Shown here in pieces: positions 834 to 45,850 of a DNA stretch of 45,850 nt (position 1 is the stretch's first letter; each line of letters opens with the position of its first letter). The notes below the pieces were generated by a model. It made no database searches, was not told the DNA's origin, and worked only from the letters and a program-made list of their open reading frames with translations. Made by a program: the position numbers and the translations under genes. Source of the stretch: a virus; IMG/VR virus record IMGVR_UViG_3300020411_002605, positions 1-45,850 of that record. One strand, 5' to 3'.

Positions 834-899
834 TCAGGGACAGTTCCCTGATCGTGCCCTGCCGGATCGTGAATCCGGTGCCGACTAATCGGACAGGGC
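834..899 (-). promoter_or_regulatory. tRNA-like intergenic RNA element 1
   Basis: Minus strand. GCCCTG (899-894) pairs with CAGGGC (861-856). The T-arm-like hairpin CCGGA-TTCACGA-TCCGG stacks on it, giving 11 bp in all with a 7-nt loop. A side hairpin CCGA-TTAG-TCGG sits in the junction. The invariant CACGATC follows, then hairpin TCAGGGA-ACTG-TCCCTGA (851-834). It starts 7 nt after the stop codon of the upstream gene (906-1130). Confidence 0.7.
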
Positions 900-905
900 G
901 ACCCA

Positions 906-1130
906 TTAAGACAGGTCGTACAAGCTACTTAGAGCTTGCGTGATGTAGTTCTCAAGGTGGAGCTTGTCTTTCTCGCTACCCTTGAAATCAACTACTGATT
1001 GATGAACATCGCCACACTCAAGTGTCTCTAACCACTCGGTGTATTCTTCTTCATCTGAAGCTCCTAGAGCTTCTGATTGAGCTTCATCAATGTTCTCAAT
1101 GATCTCTTCTAGTGTTAATGGTATTCCCAT
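906..1130 (-). CDS. Small acidic early protein, unknown function
   Basis: 74 aa with ATG at 1130 and SD GGAGGA six bases upstream in a hairpin loop. It is strongly acidic: residues 8-36 are rich in Glu/Asp (LEEIIENIDEAQ, SDEEEYTEW), with few basic residues until the middle. No signal peptide or membrane segment is visible. I recognise no family. Small acidic early phage proteins can act as DNA mimics against host nucleases, but nothing specific in this sequence proves that. Intergenic RNA elements lie on both sides, so it appears to be one unit of a repeated leader-plus-gene series. Confidence 0.75.
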   Translation of the reverse strand: MGIPLTLEEIIENIDEAQSEALGASDEEEYTEWLETLECGDVHQSVVDFKGSEKDKLHLENYITQALSSLYDLS

Positions 1131-1145
1131 GGATCCTCCTCCATG
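1128..1145 (-). promoter_or_regulatory. SD-in-loop hairpin at start of gene 1130
   Basis: Minus strand CATGGA pairs with TCCATG around the loop GGAGGA, with the start ATG in the 3' stem strand. The stem differs from that at 808-826 but pairs equally well. Confidence 0.7.
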
Positions 1146-1151
1146 TCTATG

Positions 1152-1220
1152 TCAGGGGCTGTTCCCTGATCGTGCTCTGCCCAGTCGTGAACTAGGAGCC
1201 GGTCGTTAACCGGTCAGAGC
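1152..1220 (-). promoter_or_regulatory. tRNA-like intergenic RNA element 2
   Basis: Minus strand. GCTCTG (1220-1215) pairs with CAGAGC (1179-1174). T-arm-like CCTAG-TTCACGA-CTGGG has 5 bp with one G-U pair. The junction hairpin is CCGG-TTAACGA-CCGG. Then CACGATC and hairpin TCAGGGA-ACAG-CCCCTGA. It begins about 7 nt after the upstream stop. Confidence 0.7.
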
Positions 1221-1226
1221 TTTGCA

Positions 1227-1445
1227 TCAGACGATGCGAGCCATTGAAGAGAAGTTACTCCCTAGTTGCTCGGTCAGATGCTCGCCGTCCTCAAAGAAAG
1301 CTTTGACATCAGCGATGAGCGCTTGCCTAGGTGTCTGGTCCATCGTTGGCTCTACTCGGTGGTAATCAATCCACTCTTTCGCTTCAACTTCAATGGTCAG
1401 CGTTACCTTAACGGCTACGGTATTTATTTCTTGTTTCTTTACCAT
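1227..1445 (-). CDS. Small early protein, unknown function
   Basis: 72 aa with ATG at 1445 preceded by AGGAGGAAC, where the SD lies in a hairpin loop. The N-terminus is basic (MVKKQE), followed by an alternating hydrophobic stretch (VAVKVTLTIEVEA, residues 10-22) that looks like a beta strand pair, then an acidic helical half. No Cys motifs, signal peptide or known domain are visible. It is flanked by two tRNA-like intergenic elements (1152-1220 and 1468-1527) and is read in the same direction as its neighbours, so it is probably co-transcribed with them. Confidence 0.72.
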   Translation of the reverse strand: MVKKQEINTVAVKVTLTIEVEAKEWIDYHRVEPTMDQTPRQALIADVKAFFEDGEHLTEQLGSNFSSMARIV

Positions 1446-1460
1446 GGTTCCTCCTCATGG
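1442..1460 (-). promoter_or_regulatory. SD-in-loop hairpin at start of gene 1445
   Basis: Minus strand CCATG pairs with CATGG around loop AGGAGGAAC, with the start codon in the 3' stem strand. Confidence 0.65.
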
Positions 1461-1467
1461 TGTCATG

Positions 1468-1527
1468 TCGGGACTGTTCCCGATCGTGAGTGCTGGGGGC
1501 TCGAACCCCAGTGCCTGCCAGTCACCC
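1468..1527 (-). promoter_or_regulatory. tRNA-like intergenic RNA element 3
   Basis: Minus strand. GGGTG (1527-1523) pairs with CACTC (1492-1488, one G-U). CTGGGG-TTCGAGC-CCCCAG stacks on it, 11 bp in total. The loop TTCGAGC is a canonical tRNA T-loop sequence. The junction holds 11 nt with only a weak side helix. Then CACGATC and hairpin TCGGGA-ACAG-TCCCGA. Confidence 0.7.
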
Positions 1528-1534
1528 GTTGAGA

Positions 1535-1906
1535 TTAGAAAGTAATCTCGGCTACCTCGGCGAAGATAACATCGGCACCAAGATAGTCCATGTCTTCATC
1601 ATATTTGGTTATGGAGTAATCGTCGTTTTCATCCTTGTGGACGTAGCCAGCTGTAAATCCATCAGTTGGGTCTCCTATGATATGACCGTGCACTCGTAAG
1701 CGCCTTAGGACATTCTCAAAATCAACATACCGTAGATCACAGATTCCATAATCATCCCCAACTACTTTGTAGATGTCTGTTGAATTGAACATGTAGTCCC
1801 AGAGATCATCTGTACTAGTTGGTGTTGTTGAAGCTCTTAGTCTGTCAATCATGAGTCGTGCAATCTTGTCGTGATTGAAATACTTGTCTTTAATTGTTAA
1901 TTTCAT
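1535..1906 (-). CDS. Early protein of unknown function
   Basis: 123 aa, ATG at 1906 with GGAGGA six bases upstream in the loop of a hairpin. The N-terminal half is helical and contains DKIARLMIDRLRAS. The middle, VDFENVLRRLRVHGHIIGDP (residues 62-81), resembles the end of a winged helix, which is only a suggestion. The C-terminus is acidic with several Tyr and Asp residues. No recognised motif gives a function. The stop codon lies 7 nt before tRNA-like element 3. Confidence 0.78.
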   Translation of the reverse strand: MKLTIKDKYFNHDKIARLMIDRLRASTTPTSTDDLWDYMFNSTDIYKVVGDDYGICDLRYVDFENVLRRLRVHGHIIGDPTDGFTAGYVHKDENDDYSITKYDEDMDYLGADVIFAEVAEITF

Positions 1907-1921
1907 GGATCCTCCTCCATG
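1904..1921 (-). promoter_or_regulatory. SD-in-loop hairpin at start of gene 1906
   Basis: Minus strand CATGGA pairs with TCCATG around loop GGAGGA, with the start ATG in the 3' stem strand. Confidence 0.7.
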
Positions 1922-1929
1922 GGTTATTG

Positions 1930-1988
1930 TCGGCAGTGTTGCCGATCGTGAGCTGGGGGGAATTGAACCCCCCTACAACCATTAGCCC
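1930..1988 (-). promoter_or_regulatory. tRNA-like intergenic RNA element 4
   Basis: Minus strand. GGGCT (1988-1984, overlapping the stop codon region of gene 1982-2374) pairs with AGCTC. GGGGGG-TTCAATT-CCCCCC stacks on it, 11 bp in total, and TTCAATT is a canonical T-loop sequence. The side-arm sequence AATGGTTGTA is unpaired or weak. Then CACGATC and hairpin TCGGCA-ACAC-TGCCGA. Confidence 0.7.
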
Positions 1989-2374
1989 TTTGCTAAGAAA
2001 CTTCTCAGCACAAAATCACGTCGCTTATCGCCTAAGCTAGCCCATTTCTTCAACGTGCTAGTCGGTACTGGTTTCAGTCCCATGCGCTCGTTGCGAGTTT
2101 GGTATTTCCACTTGAGATTACGGAGTATTTCTGCTTCGTGATCTGCCATGATTGCTCTTGCCCTTGCTCGTTCGTCAGCGGTCAATGTTGGTCGCTTACG
2201 AGGAGTGTTGTAGGCAATATCTCTTGCTTGGTGAAAAGCTGACCAGAATGGTTCAGCTTCATTGGCACAAGCAATTCCGAGCTCAATAGCTTTAGCCTGA
2301 ACTTGGGCAGTGCCTGCCATGTTTTCGCCTAGCTTGGTGCCTTCAGCGATAAGTGTTTCTAGTGTGAGTTCCAT
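1982..2374 (-). CDS. Early protein of unknown function, basic C-terminal half
   Basis: 130 aa, ATG at 2374 with AGGAGGACA upstream. The N-terminal half is predicted helical and neutral. From about residue 58 (PRKRPTLTADERARARAIMADHE) it becomes basic and helical, which would fit nucleic-acid contact, but no helix-turn-helix or zinc site is clear. The gene ends GGC TAA, and these bases form the 5' strand of the closing helix of tRNA-like element 4, so a ribosome finishing this gene would sit on that structure. Confidence 0.78.
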   Translation of the reverse strand: MELTLETLIAEGTKLGENMAGTAQVQAKAIELGIACANEAEPFWSAFHQARDIAYNTPRKRPTLTADERARARAIMADHEAEILRNLKWKYQTRNERMGLKPVPTSTLKKWASLGDKRRDFVLRSFLAKG

Positions 2375-2389
2375 GTGTCCTCCTCATGG
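2371..2389 (-). promoter_or_regulatory. SD-in-loop hairpin at start of gene 2374
   Basis: Minus strand CCATG pairs with CATGG around loop AGGAGGACA, with the start codon in the 3' stem strand. Confidence 0.65.
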
Positions 2390-2396
2390 ATCATGC

Positions 2397-2463
2397 CTAG
2401 GGCGATTCCCTAGATCGTGGACTGGGGAGTCACGAGCTCCCCTGTCGGTCTTACCGAAAGTCC
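2397..2463 (-). promoter_or_regulatory. tRNA-like intergenic RNA element 5
   Basis: Minus strand. GGACT (2463-2459) pairs with AGTCC (2423-2419). GGGGAG-CTCGTGA-CTCCCC stacks on it, again 11 bp with a 7-nt loop, though the loop is the reverse complement of the TCACGAG type. Side hairpin TCGG-TAAGA-CCGA carries the stop codon of the upstream gene in its loop. Then CACGATC and hairpin CTAGGG-AATCG-CCCTAG. Confidence 0.65.
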
Positions 2464-2636: not shown

Positions 2637-2652
2637 GCTGTCCTCCTGCATG
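2634..2652 (-). promoter_or_regulatory. SD-in-loop hairpin at start of gene 2636
   Basis: Minus strand CATGC pairs with GCATG around loop AGGAGGACA. Both strands differ from the CCATG/CATGG type in a matching way (covariation). Confidence 0.7.
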
Positions 2653-2654
2653 AG

Positions 2655-3284
2655 TTTCTTGAGCCCCAGAGTGGGACTCTCATCAGTGTGTTAATTCACA
2701 GACTCAGTGACGACGGTGGATGCGATGTGAAGTCGCATGAGGTGAGGAATGCCAACGCCGTATGGGTGTCACCGGAATGATCTCAGATCCGATCTCAGTC
2801 TACTCTTGCTCTGTGCATACATCTGTGCGATTGACAATGACCTTCTCGGCTACCTACTCACCTCTTCACTGTGATGTCTTGGATGGGCTGGTTTAGCATT
2901 TCTGCCAAGTGCCTCTAGATCCTAAGATCGCCTTTGCCCAACATCACAGCGAGTCAACAGCTTTCGCTCACTCGCCTGCGCCGGATACTGACCAACCCCA
3001 TCAGGGGTAAACTTTCTCCGACTCTCCCATTGTCCTCCGTTGCCCACGGATGAGAGTAATTCGCCTGATCCTTGAACTTTCGCCGTTGGTATTAATTCCT
3101 GCTCCCTTCGCCGACCGCCTCGCCTTACCTCAGCAATCTCCAGAAGCCCTTGGGCTACTCGTCCGATCTTCACGGATCAAACTCCACTAGTTGAGAACCG
3201 GTGACTCGGTGCCCAGTCTGTCGGGCGAGCTGTCCTCCTAGCCATCGGAATCAGGGACCTATGTGCGGTTTGAATTTCCGATCT
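2655..3284 (-). ncRNA. Large structured noncoding RNA (GOLLD/ROOL-like candidate)
   Basis: About 630 nt without a convincing gene, directly behind a strong promoter. Minus-strand helices visible by eye, in transcript order: ATCGGAA with TTCCGAT near the 5' end; GCCC with GGGC; AGCCC-AA-GGGCT; ACTCTC with GAGAGT enclosing TCCGT-GGGCA-ACGGA; ACCCC-TGAT-GGGGT; GCGAGT with ACTCGC enclosing AGC-GAAA-GCT; CTGTGATGT (2949-2941) with ACATCACAG (2877-2869), a 9-bp long-range helix enclosing a domain with TTGGCA-GAAA-TGCTAA; and ATGCGA with TCGCAT. The two GAAA (GNRA) tetraloops occur only in minus orientation. Size, phage context and multi-branched fold resemble the giant phage RNAs GOLLD and ROOL, but I cannot assign the class from memory. 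It may also be the 5' leader of the early transcript. Confidence 0.7.
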
Positions 3285-3290
3285 GTAAGT

Positions 3291-3319
3291 AGATTAGAAC
3301 ATGGGTGGGACAGTGTCAA
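3291..3319 (-). promoter_or_regulatory. Sigma70/SigA-type promoter for the ncRNA and early arm
   Basis: Minus strand TTGACA (3319-3314, perfect -35), a 17-nt spacer, then TAATCT (3296-3291), which fits the TAnnnT form of actinobacterial -10 elements. Predicted start is near 3284, immediately before the first helix of the ncRNA. All early genes lie downstream in the same orientation. Confidence 0.75.
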
Positions 3320-11600: not shown

Positions 11601-14600
11601 TAAAAAATATGGTCTTGATACCCCTAAAGTAATCTTTCATCGCAAGGAAGATGGCACTGGTTACACGCCTAATCTTCCAGAAGAAATTTATGAAAAAATA
11701 GCAAAACTGTATGAAAATGCCAAGGGAGGTAGGGCACCTTTAAAGAGTAGCAAAGTAAGGAAGGCATGGGAAGCTCTTAGAAGAGAGGTCTATGAACAAT
11801 ACCAGTTCTTAACTAACGAACTGGGAATTAAAGTTATTATCGGGGGCGATGATCACATTGACTACAGTAGTCCTGCCGAAATGTTAAAAGACATTAATGA
11901 AAATGGCGTGCTAAGGATCAGGCCATCTCGTTATGATTCGCCCCATCCTTTCTTTACCGATAGGGAAAATGACATGTTCCGTGCTGTTCATGATTTCTTT
12001 GGACATGCCGGTCAAGGAAACAACTTTACCCGTGAAGGGGAATGGATTGCCCTTGCAAAGCACGCACCCATGTTTTCTAAATTGGCCCAAGGTGCTTTGG
12101 CATGGGACCTTTTGGGTAACACTTCTTGGCTTGTGGCAAGCTGGGATAACAAACACAAGTTTAGAAAACACTTAGAAGAAATGTTCCCTCATCTGAAACA
12201 TTTTCCTTTCAGGGTAGGCGGCGCTGGTGAGGTGAGCATGGAAGGCGTTGTCTACGCACAGGAAGGTTTTACTGATGGCTCGCTTTTCCTTGGCGCTGGT
12301 AATTCTAGGATCACCCTAAAGGGCAGAAATGCTGATTCTCCTGAAGGGCTGGATTTTGAACTGGTGCCAATGGAATTTTTTGATAATGTGATTAAGGGTT
12401 ATTATAGAACTCCCGAAATTGAAGAGGCCATGCTGGCCGGTACAGTATCACAATATAAGCAGGGTCGCTATAATCCTGTTGAAAGAAGATATGTTCGTGA
12501 ACTGGCCACGAGCATTGAGACGAATGGTTTTATAGAGCCTATTCCGATTAATTACTGGTATAACAGTGGAAAGATTGTAGTGGGCGAAGGTAACCACAGG
12601 TTTGAAGCAGCTGTTGAATTGGGCTTAACTCATATCCCTGTTAAATTCCTTAGGCAGGGCGGCGATGCCCCTGCTCATGCTGTTAGCTTAAGCAATACGG
12701 AAAAATTGAAATGGAAAGATGGCTTTGGGAATGATCCTAATTGGGACGGTTACAGGATTAACGGCGAATACGTTAATCCTACTTTTAATCCTCATATGAT
12801 TTTGAACATAGAGCCTTCTGTCGTGACGGTTCCTTATGGCGTTACACTAGGAGCAATCGGCAAGAGGGTCACTAGCTACATAGGCCCTGCGTTTAGTTTA
12901 AAGGGCCAAGCCAGACGTGCAAAGGATCAGCCTACTAGTGAGACCTTTCCCTTGGATAGGGATTCTCATTTGTTGTTAGATGAAAAGGGTATTCCAAGGG
13001 CGATTACCATAGGGACTATTCTTGAAGACGTTAGGACAGTTAATGCTGGTGGCGATCACCCTGCTCAGTCTAGAATTAGGACAGCCGTATTGGGCACGGT
13101 CGTTCAACACACATCTGGTTCTGGTATTCTTCATAATATCCCTACTAATTTTAGGCGAATTATTCCCGTGAGGGAAGGCAGGATGCTCATGGACGTTGAA
13201 ACGGGCAGGGAGTTCCTTGGCGCAAAGTATGCCGCAATGGCAGATGCTACTGGAAGTCCAGTGACCTCTTTGAACGGTATGCCAATGGCATCGTATTTGG
13301 CATGGGGAGATGTGAGGCTCGGTGATAGTCTTATTGAGCCTCCTCAGAGTATAAGGAAAGGTGCCCCTACTGCTGCTTTGTTAGACAAAAGCCTAGTAGA
13401 GAAAATTGAGAAGATCACTAGTGAGCCCATTGATCCAAATGAGAAACTTCAAATTAATAGAAGGACTGTTTTGGCAAGGAAGCCTGAGTGGTGGCACTAC
13501 AGATTGGCAGACGATGATTATGATCTTGAAGAATTGATAGAGGCATACCCTGAATTGGAAGATGAACTGCGTAATAATGCTGGTCCAATGACTATAGATG
13601 AGGACGGTGAATTGGTTGCATTTGATGCGTGGGAAATGGAACCAGTTGACTTGCTTGATCTAATGACAGAAGAGCGGTACATTCCAATAGATTTGGTCAA
13701 CAACGGCACTGAGCTTATGCTACCGCATCAGCTTCAGGGGGATAATTTTGACAATGTTTTGCAAAATCTATTTGACTGGTATTTTTACAGGAACGGAGTG
13801 GCCCTTAACGAGCTCGTTGAAATGTTTGAAGTAGAGACTTTTGGCCATCACTTTGATGAGAAAGACTGGTTGCGAGATGTCAATACTCAGAGCTACCCTT
13901 CTGATATTGGTGATGCTTTTGACGCAGTTGCAGAGGCAATGATGTCTATTTCAAGACCGGAAAAGAACATTACAGTATGGAGGGGTGGGGAAACTCTTGG
14001 TCAGGGAAGGTTAATGTCAACGTCTAAGGATCAGAGTACAGCTGAGTTCTTTGGCAGGGAATGGGGATTTGGTCGTATATCGTCTTTTGAGTTGTTCCCT
14101 GAAGATGTCATTTATGACATTGAGGCAATTCTCGGTAGGAAATGGAAGCATGTATCAGGCATTTGGCATTGGGATAGGCAGGACCAAAAATGGACTGTGA
14201 CCATTAAGGACGACGATGGTAAGAAATTTAGAAGACACGATGATCCTGCCGATGCCGAATTTGCAGGAGAGAAAGAGGTCGGTGTGTACGGTGGGTTGTT
14301 AGCGCACCGTAGAACTGATGAGGCACCTTACACTGCTTTGATAAGAGAGGCCAACAAAGTGTACGAAGAGCACTTGGCCATAGTGAAAAGTGAAGCAGAG
14401 GCCGGTAGGGACCAAGTGGTAATAATGACCATTGAACCAAGTGGTGAAGGTATAAAGTTTGTTCCAGCGTTAGAGGATAGAAAGCCTTTTTGGAATTACG
14501 ATAACGATACAGATTTTACTATAACTATTACTGAAGAAATAGCAAAAGAATATGATATACCCGATGCCTATATAGGGCAGAAAACACATGAGTCTAGTGC

Positions 14601-44054: not shown

Positions 44055-44075
44055 ATTATCCTCCTCTTGGATAAT
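44055..44075 (-). promoter_or_regulatory. SD hairpin upstream of gene 44054
   Basis: Minus strand ATTATCC-AAGAGGA-GGATAAT, 7 perfect pairs ending at the start codon. Half of the AGAGGAGG SD is in the loop and half in the stem. Confidence 0.5.
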
Positions 44076-44685
44076 CTTTAATGGGATACCGGAAATCTTC
44101 CAGCACCTGTTTCTTCCATTTCTTATCGCCATGGAAAAAAACGTAGCGATGCTTACGAGGTCGTGGAACGACCTTGACAGCATCGCCATACTTTTCACGC
44201 ATTAACTGCGCTCTGTTTGGCTGACCTCGGAACTCGTCTACCACAGATTGACTGTGTAGATGTTCCTTGCCCTCCACTACCATGTCTGTACGCTTAGCGC
44301 TAAGCCCAGAGTACAGAAAGTTAGTAGCCTGATACACAACACCAAGGTGATCCTGTGCCGTATCGGCATAGGACACGATGATCTTGTTCTTGGGTAATTG
44401 TCTAAGGCTCTTACCCACGAGCCTACTCGCTTCGTTAGGGCGATTGTACTTCAGCACAAGCCTGTTGAGCTCCAGTACGTCAAGCTCGTATCCTTCGCCA
44501 CAGATACCCTTCCTCAATGTTGATGAGAAAGGAGTACCGTAGGTGACGACACCAACGAGCTCTTCGTCGTGGAACAAACCAAACCGGTAGCTGACGCTTG
44601 GGAACCTCTTGGCATAGTGGATCTCAAGGATGAACGGTTCACAGTCAGACCGGCTAACCGGTCTGACTGTGTATCCGCTACTCAT
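44056..44685 (-). CDS. Mom-like DNA modification protein
   Basis: 209 aa from ATG 44685 (GGGGGA upstream; overlaps the previous stop). ELNRLVLKYNRPNEASRLVGKSLR, IIVSYADTAQDHLGVVYQATNFLYSG and the basic end RKHRYVFFHG follow the pattern of the Mom family, GNAT-like enzymes that turn adenine into N6-carbamoylmethyladenine and shield phage DNA from restriction. Family link is from pattern memory. In phage Mu, mom is tightly controlled; here a 14-bp inverted repeat lies at codons 5-16. Confidence 0.78.
   Translation of the reverse strand: MSSGYTVRPVSRSDCEPFILEIHYAKRFPSVSYRFGLFHDEELVGVVTYGTPFSSTLRKGICGEGYELDVLELNRLVLKYNRPNEASRLVGKSLRQLPKNKIIVSYADTAQDHLGVVYQATNFLYSGLSAKRTDMVVEGKEHLHSQSVVDEFRGQPNRAQLMREKYGDAVKVVPRPRKHRYVFFHGDKKWKKQVLEDFRYPIKDYPRGG
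44640..44671 (-). promoter_or_regulatory. 14-bp perfect inverted repeat inside Mom-like gene start
   Basis: CACAGTCAGACCGG-TTAG-CCGGTCTGACTGTG (minus strand), 14 pairs with a 4-nt loop, 15-46 nt after the ATG. Strong enough to stall or bind a regulator. The loop part CCGG-TTAG-CCGG echoes the side hairpins of the tRNA-like elements. Confidence 0.65.
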
Positions 44686-45136: not shown

Positions 45137-45144
45137 TATTATGC

Positions 45145-45213
45145 CGTGCCATTGTGACACGATCGTGGACTGCCGGATCGTGAATCCGGTGCCGGTCGTT
45201 AGCCGGTCAGTCC
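45145..45213 (-). promoter_or_regulatory. tRNA-like intergenic RNA element 6
   Basis: Minus strand. GGACTG (45213-45208) pairs with CAGTCC (45172-45167). T-arm-like CCGGA-TTCACGA-TCCGG stacks on it (11 bp in total). Side hairpin CCGG-CTAACGA-CCGG. Then CACGATC and hairpin CGTGTC-ACAAT-GGCACG. It starts about 6 nt after the stop of the metallohydrolase gene. Same plan as the elements at 834-2463 but at the other end of the window. Confidence 0.7.
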
Positions 45214-45219
45214 TTTGGC

Positions 45220-45831
45220 TCATGTGTACCATGTCCTATCTGGTTTCGGATCCCAAGGGCACTGGTTCTTCGCACCCTGAGGACGTAGGTATCTAACGTT
45301 GTTGTCCTTGAATGCTTGTCGCAATGCTTTCTTGGCATCAGCTCCCAGAGCCATGCCCACAAGATTAAGATAGATGGCACAGAATTGCCATCCGTGACCT
45401 TGGTGCCACATATAGTCTGGGCTACCATTCTCACTGTAATCAACAGTATGAGCCAGCTCGTGCAAGACAACGTACTTCTGTCTTGCCCATTTGGATAAGC
45501 TGATCTCTTCACGGTTGGCGCATCCACCGTTTGCTCGTGGGGTGAACTTGATCCCCATTGATCGTCCGGTTTCAAGGCTATAACCTTGAACGTAAACATG
45601 TCTGCCATAAGGCGTGTACCTTTGTGGTTTCATCTTCACTGATCCTTGACGACGATGGAGCCTAGGGTACTTCTTCGCAAACGATTGCCTGCGTGTCAGT
45701 CTGGTAACGAACTCCCAAACGTCCTCTAGGTCGCCTAGGATTTCCTTCCCACCAAAAGCACCCCAGTCCACACTCCGCTCTGCGGTGTAGACCATCTGCT
45801 GTTGATTGTCATAATTTGTTTTACCTCTCAT
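45220..45831 (-). CDS. TIGR04338-like zinc metallohydrolase
   Basis: 203 aa, ATG 45831 with AGGAGGACA upstream. VYTAERSVDWG near the N-terminus and HELAH (124-128) with a third ligand candidate at His146 (QGHGWQF) match the SprT/WLM-like zinc protease pattern of the TIGR04338 family, typical of actinobacteria and their phages. Substrate unknown. If the genome is circular it directly follows the gene at 1-811. Confidence 0.75.
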   Translation of the reverse strand: MRGKTNYDNQQQMVYTAERSVDWGAFGGKEILGDLEDVWEFVTRLTRRQSFAKKYPRLHRRQGSVKMKPQRYTPYGRHVYVQGYSLETGRSMGIKFTPRANGGCANREEISLSKWARQKYVVLHELAHTVDYSENGSPDYMWHQGHGWQFCAIYLNLVGMALGADAKKALRQAFKDNNVRYLRPQGAKNQCPWDPKPDRTWYT

Positions 45832-45849: not shown

Positions 45850-45850
45850 T

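Follow-up and report, generated by a model that had tools for sequence, protein, structure and literature searches.

Transfer RNA mimics in the early-gene gaps of a metagenomic phage, and hammerhead ribozymes in the same gaps of its relatives, suggest punctuation of a long messenger RNA

The early genes of the virus in IMG/VR record IMGVR_UViG_3300020411_002605 are separated by gaps in which the same small RNA fold recurs in different sequences, raising the question of what such a fold does between genes. We analyzed the complete record of 45,850 bases (the window), which is metagenomic, as are all the records compared with it; the phages make up an uncultured marine family. It carries a phage gene set, with terminase, portal and major head protein genes on the plus strand and replication, Mom-like and endolysin genes on the minus strand. 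The six elements in question belong to an early minus-strand operon that runs from about 2.7 kb to base 1 and resumes at base 45,850. Judged by their sequences, they are well supported as minimal transfer RNA (tRNA) mimics, made up of an 11-base-pair (bp) acceptor/T-arm stack, a T-loop and often a D-loop-like strand or D-hairpin. The new observation is that the early gaps of related phages hold type II hammerheads or a third, pseudoknotted motif in place of the mimics. This suggests that RNA modules mark where one long mRNA is cut into single-gene pieces; on the proposal that the mimics mark sites for processing between the cistrons of a long early transcript, our judgement is evenly balanced.

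All six elements lie on the minus strand, and each continues into ACGA and a hairpin. Element 1 (2396-2463) has the closing helix (P1) GGACT/AGTCC, a side hairpin TCGG-TAAGA-CCGA and a T-arm-like hairpin GGGGAG-CTCGTGA-CTCCCC; the TAA of the upstream gene sits within its D-loop. Element 2 (1930-1988), which also overlaps the TAA of its upstream gene, combines P1 GGGCT/AGCTC, the stemless D-loop-like strand AATGGTTGTA and GGGGGG-TTCAATT-CCCCCC. Element 3 (1468-1527) is built of P1 GGGTG/CACTC and CTGGGG-TTCGAGC-CCCCAG, without a side hairpin. The remaining three have side hairpins: element 4 (1152-1220) with P1 GCTCTG/CAGAGC, CCGG-TTAACGA-CCGG and CCTAG-TTCACGA-CTGGG; element 5 (834-899) with P1 GCCCTG/CAGGGC, CCGA-TTAG-TCGG and CCGGA-TTCACGA-TCCGG; and element 6 (45144-45213) with P1 GGACTG/CAGTCC, CCGG-CTAACGA-CCGG and CCGGA-TTCACGA-TCCGG. 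The helix is divided into 6+5 bp in elements 4, 5 and 6 and into 5+6 bp in elements 1, 2 and 3, for a total of 11 in every case. The side arm interrupts only the 5' strand, leaving the 3' strand unbroken, and the order downstream of each element is (C)ACGATC, hairpin, GAGGAGG and start codon. The upstream stop codon ends 6-7 nucleotides before the element in four of the six and lies inside it in the other two, elements 1 and 2.

Much of this anatomy had been described in an initial annotation made from the letters of the window, and the re-examination bears it out: six minus-strand elements in gaps, each starting within 7 nucleotides of the upstream stop codon or overlapping it, a constant 11-bp total, seven-nucleotide loops (TTCACGA three times, TTCGAGC, TTCAATT and CTCGTGA), a 4-bp side hairpin in all except elements 2 and 3, and CACGATC followed by a hairpin in all six. 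A pairing descriptor (an 11-12 bp coaxial helix, a loop xxCRxxx, and NCGA, with any base allowed before CGA) matched the window six times on the early strand, with no match on the opposite strand or in three shuffles. Folding of the single sequences is only moderately unusual (z-scores from -3.0 to +0.6), so that the evidence for the fold is comparative.

Nucleotide searches of INPHARED with the window returned nothing, and the terminase and element patterns were therefore used to look for relatives. A scan that fixed only CACGATC, the spacing, the Shine-Dalgarno sequence and the start codon, ignoring pairing, led to four contigs with 5-9 copies each (L011, L014, L044 and L079). The terminases of L011 and L014, the two that are comparable, are >95% identical to that of the window. 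Together with the window these contigs supply 32 distinct elements. In the parse, the 11-bp stack is free of mismatches in 30 of them; of the two non-conforming elements, one has an unusually long side arm and, by inspection, full pairing. Since MAFFT misplaced the 5' strand of P1 when given the raw elements, the variable arm was padded with N to keep the register in an alignment of 24 of the 32. There, 22 pairs are 100% paired, a figure that is slightly flattering because the alignment excludes elements without a regular 4-bp side arm, one P1 mismatch, and redundant and over-long-hairpin members. Double changes occur at 18 pairs, with 138 double-changed cells against a shuffled mean of 37, and pairing falls below 50% when partners are shifted by one column. 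The covariation in related phages shows a conserved fold, and it is the fold rather than the sequence that is kept, as first proposed. A covariance model search of relatives, likewise suggested at the outset, found further elements in the more distant L102, L103, L115 and L090 (terminase 74-77% identical). No convincing matches to the window profile were found in the distant records L109, L110, L111, L112, L114, L117 and L118, several of which start just upstream of the terminase, with the early region outside the record.

What the fold resembles is clearest at the elbow of the molecule. A scan for AATGGTTNT-N7-TTCRANT-N11-ACGA, with the helices left unconstrained, gave 13 distinct stretches with a bimodal distribution of pairing: nine have 11 of 11 pairs and four have 1-6. 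The nine fully paired stretches span several lineages, including an AT-rich sister lineage (L095/L155, L144, L148, L152 and L154; terminase 69-78% identical where present) that carries one elbow-type element in nearly all of the early gaps inspected. Among 16 members aligned without gaps, little or no variation is seen in AA-GGUU, G, UUCRAUU, C and ACGA, although in the founder hits most loop letters had been fixed by the scan, the further members coming from the pairing descriptor. The consensus of the AT-rich lineage, AAYGGUU with the D-loop GG and then G-UUCRAUU-C, corresponds to tRNA A14, R15, G18, G19, G53, U54, U55, C56, R57, A58 and C61. This independent set again covaries, with 69 double-changed cells over 11 pairs versus 19 in shuffles. 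Both elbow signatures, the D-loop GG and the T-loop G53-UUCRANY-C61, are present in the AT-rich relatives and in window element 2, which belongs to the elbow subtype. The other five window elements have them in part, keeping loop positions 56 and 57 and often showing C or U at 58. At the level of these letters, the identity with the tRNA elbow is established.

The geometry is equally strict. Exactly 11 bp are found in 50 of 51 distinct elements, the unpaired discriminator after the helix is A in 50 of 51, and the nucleotide at -1 is A or C, again in 50 of 51; a twelfth pair is avoided, since this A or C faces the unpaired A. G1-C is the first pair in 43 of the 51. The suffix is nearly always CGA, with ACTA and ACGC in a few gaps, although the descriptor fixed CGA and its count is not independent. 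ACCA occurs in no gap that we read, the six window elements reading ACGATC. With a coaxial acceptor/T-arm stack, a T-loop and an unpaired 5' flank, the elements have the geometry of an RNase P substrate, one pair short of tRNA.

ARAGORN reported no tRNA genes in the window and neither tRNA nor transfer-messenger RNA (tmRNA) at the elements, and there was no Rfam tRNA match in the window, indicating no cloverleaf with an anticodon arm; the best match to tmRNA (RF00023) is a weak one, 16.5 bits at 1949-1989 in element 2, too low to place the window elements in that family. More complete forms are found in relatives. An early gap of L103 (790-891, minus strand) contains a tmRNA tRNA-like domain scoring 61.6 bits against an Rfam cut-off of 47, and L102 (4360-4440, minus strand) has one just below the cut-off at 44.5 bits. 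Both lack the mRNA-like part, share the acceptor GGGGCAG/CTGCTCC and a P2-like stem, and end in ACGA, not ACCA; L090 carries a degenerate tRNA with a GCGA end. The mimics thus share with tmRNA and tRNA (RF00023, RF00005) the acceptor/T-arm stack, a T-loop UUCRANY, a stemless D-loop GG and the discriminator A. They differ in being one pair shorter, in lacking an anticodon arm or mRNA-like domain, and in having CGA instead of CCA with a hairpin directly 3'. Because CCA is missing, the mimics would not be chargeable as written.

A further link is to the orphan Rfam family DUF2693-FD (RF02926), reportedly described in a paper of 2017. The window has no match to it at E <= 1 (gathering score 44.5 bits). 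Relatives score below that cut-off (L090 33.6, L011 33.4 and L014 31.2 bits; close relatives 29-33), and only the remote L130 and L132, bona fide members at 59.6 bits, pass it. Conversely, a model derived from the window matches L130 and L132 with E about 5e-7. The family likewise has a coaxial P1 and T-arm-like stem, a side arm with CGG...CCGGCA and a loop AGCGAGA, which is shared by five distinct elements from relatives and is missing from the six in the window, and ACGA follows in L130 and L132. The Rfam model has 12 bp and is bound to sequence, whereas the window class has 11 bp. We regard DUF2693-FD and the window elements as one wider class, with the latter outside the family as curated. 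Taken with the D-loop GG and T-loop letters of the AT-rich lineage and the tmRNA domain of L103, this link leaves the original suggestion of an acceptor/T-arm mimic well supported.

An indication of function comes from what stands in the gaps when a mimic does not. Type II hammerheads identified with Rfam, mostly above the cut-off, occupy many other early gaps of L102, L103, L090, L115, L092 and L099, and L100 has one; seven related records thus have Hammerhead_II matches placed in this way, and L094 reads likewise. No Hammerhead_II was found in the window or its close relatives, where several mimics (as many as 11) stand in their place, and none of the six window elements has the hammerhead core (CUGANGA / GAAA / UH). 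Most of the remaining gaps are filled by a motif that we call motif C, a pseudoknot with covarying pairs that joins the stop-codon region to a hairpin loop on its 3' side. It is present in early gaps of L090, L092, L099, L110, L111, L115 and L103, and the copies in L090 and L115 matched nothing in Rfam at E <= 1. The inventory comes to about one module per gap, reaching from the stop codon to just before the Shine-Dalgarno sequence. At orthologous genes, one module is found exchanged for another: a mimic in L102 for a hammerhead in L103, a mimic in L115 for motif C in L090 and L092, a tRNA-like element in L092 for a hammerhead in L115 and L099, and a mimic in L102/L103 for motif C in L092/L099. 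As read from these orthologous gaps, the mimics are shown to be interchangeable with a known self-cleaving class at the same genes.

Motif C itself is laid out as xxCAGCG, a central hairpin, and then a hairpin whose loop pairs with upstream stop-codon bases; the pairings TGAT/ATCA, CGGATA/TATCCG and CTGAA/TTCAG covary by inspection. It is possibly a new ribozyme or a regulatory pseudoknot.

Tandem hammerheads are established as cutting phage-like polycistronic RNA (PMC3088659), and because the mimics replace hammerheads at the same genes, the simplest expectation is that they mark cuts too. Type II hammerheads (RF02276; PMC3088659) resemble the mimics in position, lying in the early gaps of sister phages from stop codon to Shine-Dalgarno sequence with tandem copies that cut polycistronic RNA. 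They differ in fold, in cleaving themselves where no catalysis is known for the mimics, and in being absent from the close relatives of the window. RNase P recognizes the stacked T-arm and acceptor starting at the elbow, and CCA acts against RNase Z as an anti-determinant of 3' trimming (PMC4919913). Since both enzymes measure from the elbow, a mimic would be natural bait for either.

Cleavage of the mimics, the enzyme responsible and the side of the cut are all inferred from sequence comparison. In the course of events that we favor, the mimic would fold once the ribosome has left the stop codon, between that codon and the next Shine-Dalgarno sequence, and nucleases with which the host processes its tRNAs would recognize the elbow. 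The cut would be made at the edge of the mimic, most likely on the 3' side after the unpaired A in the manner of RNase Z; alternatively, in elements that leave the stop codon outside, RNase P might cut at the 5' edge. Replacement of CCA would remove the RNase Z anti-determinant and prevent charging. Cleavage would separate the cistrons, so that the upstream messenger would end in a fold and the downstream one begin with a hairpin, and each early gene might thereby gain its own messenger stability and translation. In the sister phages, type II hammerheads would do this job at the same places by self-cleavage. The 3' side is preferred because the stop codon lies inside the element in nine of the 44 elements with an identified upstream open reading frame; in those nine a 5' cut would create nonstop messengers, which a 3' cut never would.

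Several observations weigh against such processing. The nine internal stop codons are themselves a difficulty, since a 5' cut would strip them off. The helix has 11 bp versus 12 in tRNA; CCA, an aid to bacterial RNase P, is missing from the elements; and most loops of the window clade have C or U at position 58 where a canonical T-loop has A. The conservation of CGA would not be accounted for by RNase P or by RNase Z, and the RNase P RNA of a metagenome-assembled genome (MAG) with a related terminase contig showed, by eye, no unusual change in L15 that could pair with CGA. The host is also uncertain, resting on that one contig, in a MAG labelled Acidimicrobiaceae.

The alternative that survives best, although we consider it unlikely, is that RNase P alone punctuates the transcript, with a cut on the 5' side of P1 in each element on the mitochondrial pattern, so that each downstream messenger would start with a mimic. 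The elbow and T-loop mimicry, G1-C in most elements and the unpaired A or C at -1 would all suit the enzyme, whose known substrates include precursors of tmRNA, the M3 and C4 RNAs of phages and certain mRNAs (PMC11143913). Such a cut would cost those nine elements, window elements 1 and 2 among them, their upstream stop codon, and the substrate lacks RCCA and has 11 bp, not 12. The initial annotation had listed mRNA processing by RNase P or RNase Z among possible roles. As a general role, processing has gained support from the hammerheads in the same gaps and the module swaps at orthologous genes, while its simple 5' RNase P form has been weakened by the stop codons and the missing CCA.

It is rather unlikely that the elements work without being cut, as stable folds that block exonucleases, insulate translation or reduce polarity, or by acting in cis on RNA polymerase in the manner of put RNAs. 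A stable fold, placed 4-9 nucleotides after the stop codon in most cases and followed by a second hairpin before the Shine-Dalgarno sequence, would serve such ends, yet neither the tRNA-elbow identity nor the hammerhead replacement at orthologous genes would be explained. The put sites of HK022 number one or two per phage, not one per gene, and put-like antitermination, also raised in the initial annotation, gained no support.

We think it improbable that the element is an unrecognized self-cleaving ribozyme with the ACGA linker, loop and side arm as its catalytic core. The gaps shared with hammerheads, the conserved ACGA beside a hairpin and the exact 11-bp geometry invite the idea. Against it, once ACGA is set aside the invariant letters match the tRNA elbow, and no other unpaired core is conserved; there is a gradation from the element to tmRNA and tRNA-like forms that carry the same suffix at the 3' end; and a few members tolerate ACTA or ACGC there.

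Recombination linkers, shared intergenic sequence that would let early-gene cassettes be shuffled as proposed for the PeSL cassettes of T4 and the start-associated repeats of cluster K, are very improbable: core and hairpin do recombine at ACGATC (in L044, and between L044 and L079) and gene content varies among relatives, yet shuffling requires sequence identity and the helix sequences change freely with pairing kept.

The recombination itself is visible in two elements of L044 (about 11,740-12,040), which have an identical core and different hairpins, and before the MATFKEIKAN gene, where L044 and L079 share the hairpin and not the core; the exchange point is ACGATC, and gene content changes upstream of it. 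A loop-loop pairing of the T-like loop with CACGATC was considered and dropped, since in many cases the loop carries the same letters as this linker and not complementary ones. Anatomy speaks against integron attC sites, REP/BIME repeats, riboswitches and intrinsic terminators, which were rejected: there is no U-run, orientation follows the genes, and the 11-bp ruler and the tRNA elbow are unlike any of them.

Beyond processing by the mimics, we tentatively propose a general RNA punctuation code, a possibility that we place somewhat short of even, in which every early gap would have one of several interchangeable cleavage modules and the transcript would be resolved into single-gene messengers. 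With the same reserve, the modules would be the type II hammerhead, the tRNA mimic (cut by host tRNA nucleases), the tmRNA-like domain and the pseudoknotted motif, perhaps a new ribozyme. Mitochondrial tRNA punctuation, the RNase P-processed phage M3 and C4 RNAs and MALAT1-mascRNA likewise mark cut sites by a tRNA or tRNA-like fold within a longer transcript; those are real tRNAs or single elements, whereas in this DNA phage a separate mimic stands in each early gap and cleavage is putative. The PeSL cassettes of T4 and the ESAS of cluster K mycobacteriophages are also repeated intergenic stem-loops before small early genes, but there the sequence is kept, and PeSL carry promoters, whereas here the fold is kept and not the sequence. 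A literature search, with most subscription papers outside its reach, found no description of one-per-gap arrays or of the link to hammerheads. If the proposal is right, this would be the first case known to us of a DNA phage using tRNA mimicry as systematic mRNA punctuation, and of tRNA mimics and self-cleaving ribozymes substituting for each other at the same genes. DUF2693-FD would gain a testable function, and the mimics, whose arm has 11 bp and whose end lacks CCA, would offer RNase P and RNase Z natural candidate substrates. Sorting the ribozyme-free gaps of such operons could also be a route to new cleavage modules, of which motif C is an example.

The genes next to the elements are all on the minus strand and without a PHROG match: early gene 1 (2451-2636, 61 amino acids), the first cistron of the putatively punctuated operon, early gene 2 (1982-2374, 130 amino acids), early gene 3 (1535-1906, 123 amino acids), early gene 4 (1227-1445, 72 amino acids), early gene 5 (906-1130, 74 amino acids) and the gene upstream of element 6 (45220-45831, 203 amino acids). 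The Mom-like DNA modification protein is encoded at 44056-44685 on the same strand (PHROG 1384, E 3.5e-55). Both termini of the window (1 and 45850) fall within the early operon. Because L011 has two extra elements and additional genes at the junction of these ends, a short piece of the genome is missing from the window.

Upstream of the operon, a consensus-like promoter is recognizable by eye at 3291-3319 on the minus strand (TTGACA, 17 nucleotides, TAATCT), and a noncoding leader of about 600 nucleotides separates it from early gene 1. The leader ends in a probable type III hammerhead ribozyme (2649-2708, minus strand), directly 5' of the Shine-Dalgarno sequence of early gene 1, scoring 26.9 bits against a gathering score of 48.5; in its homologues (L102, L100, L095 and L146) the core reads intact. 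A fold of this kind precedes the first early gene in the lineages examined, the window copy being sub-threshold. In L090, L092, L102 and L115, stem III of the leader fold includes the Shine-Dalgarno sequence (CGAGGAG) as one strand, the pairing in several relatives being CCTCCTCG with CGAGGAGG; since the Shine-Dalgarno sequence forms a strand of stem III, cleavage of the leader fold could release it.

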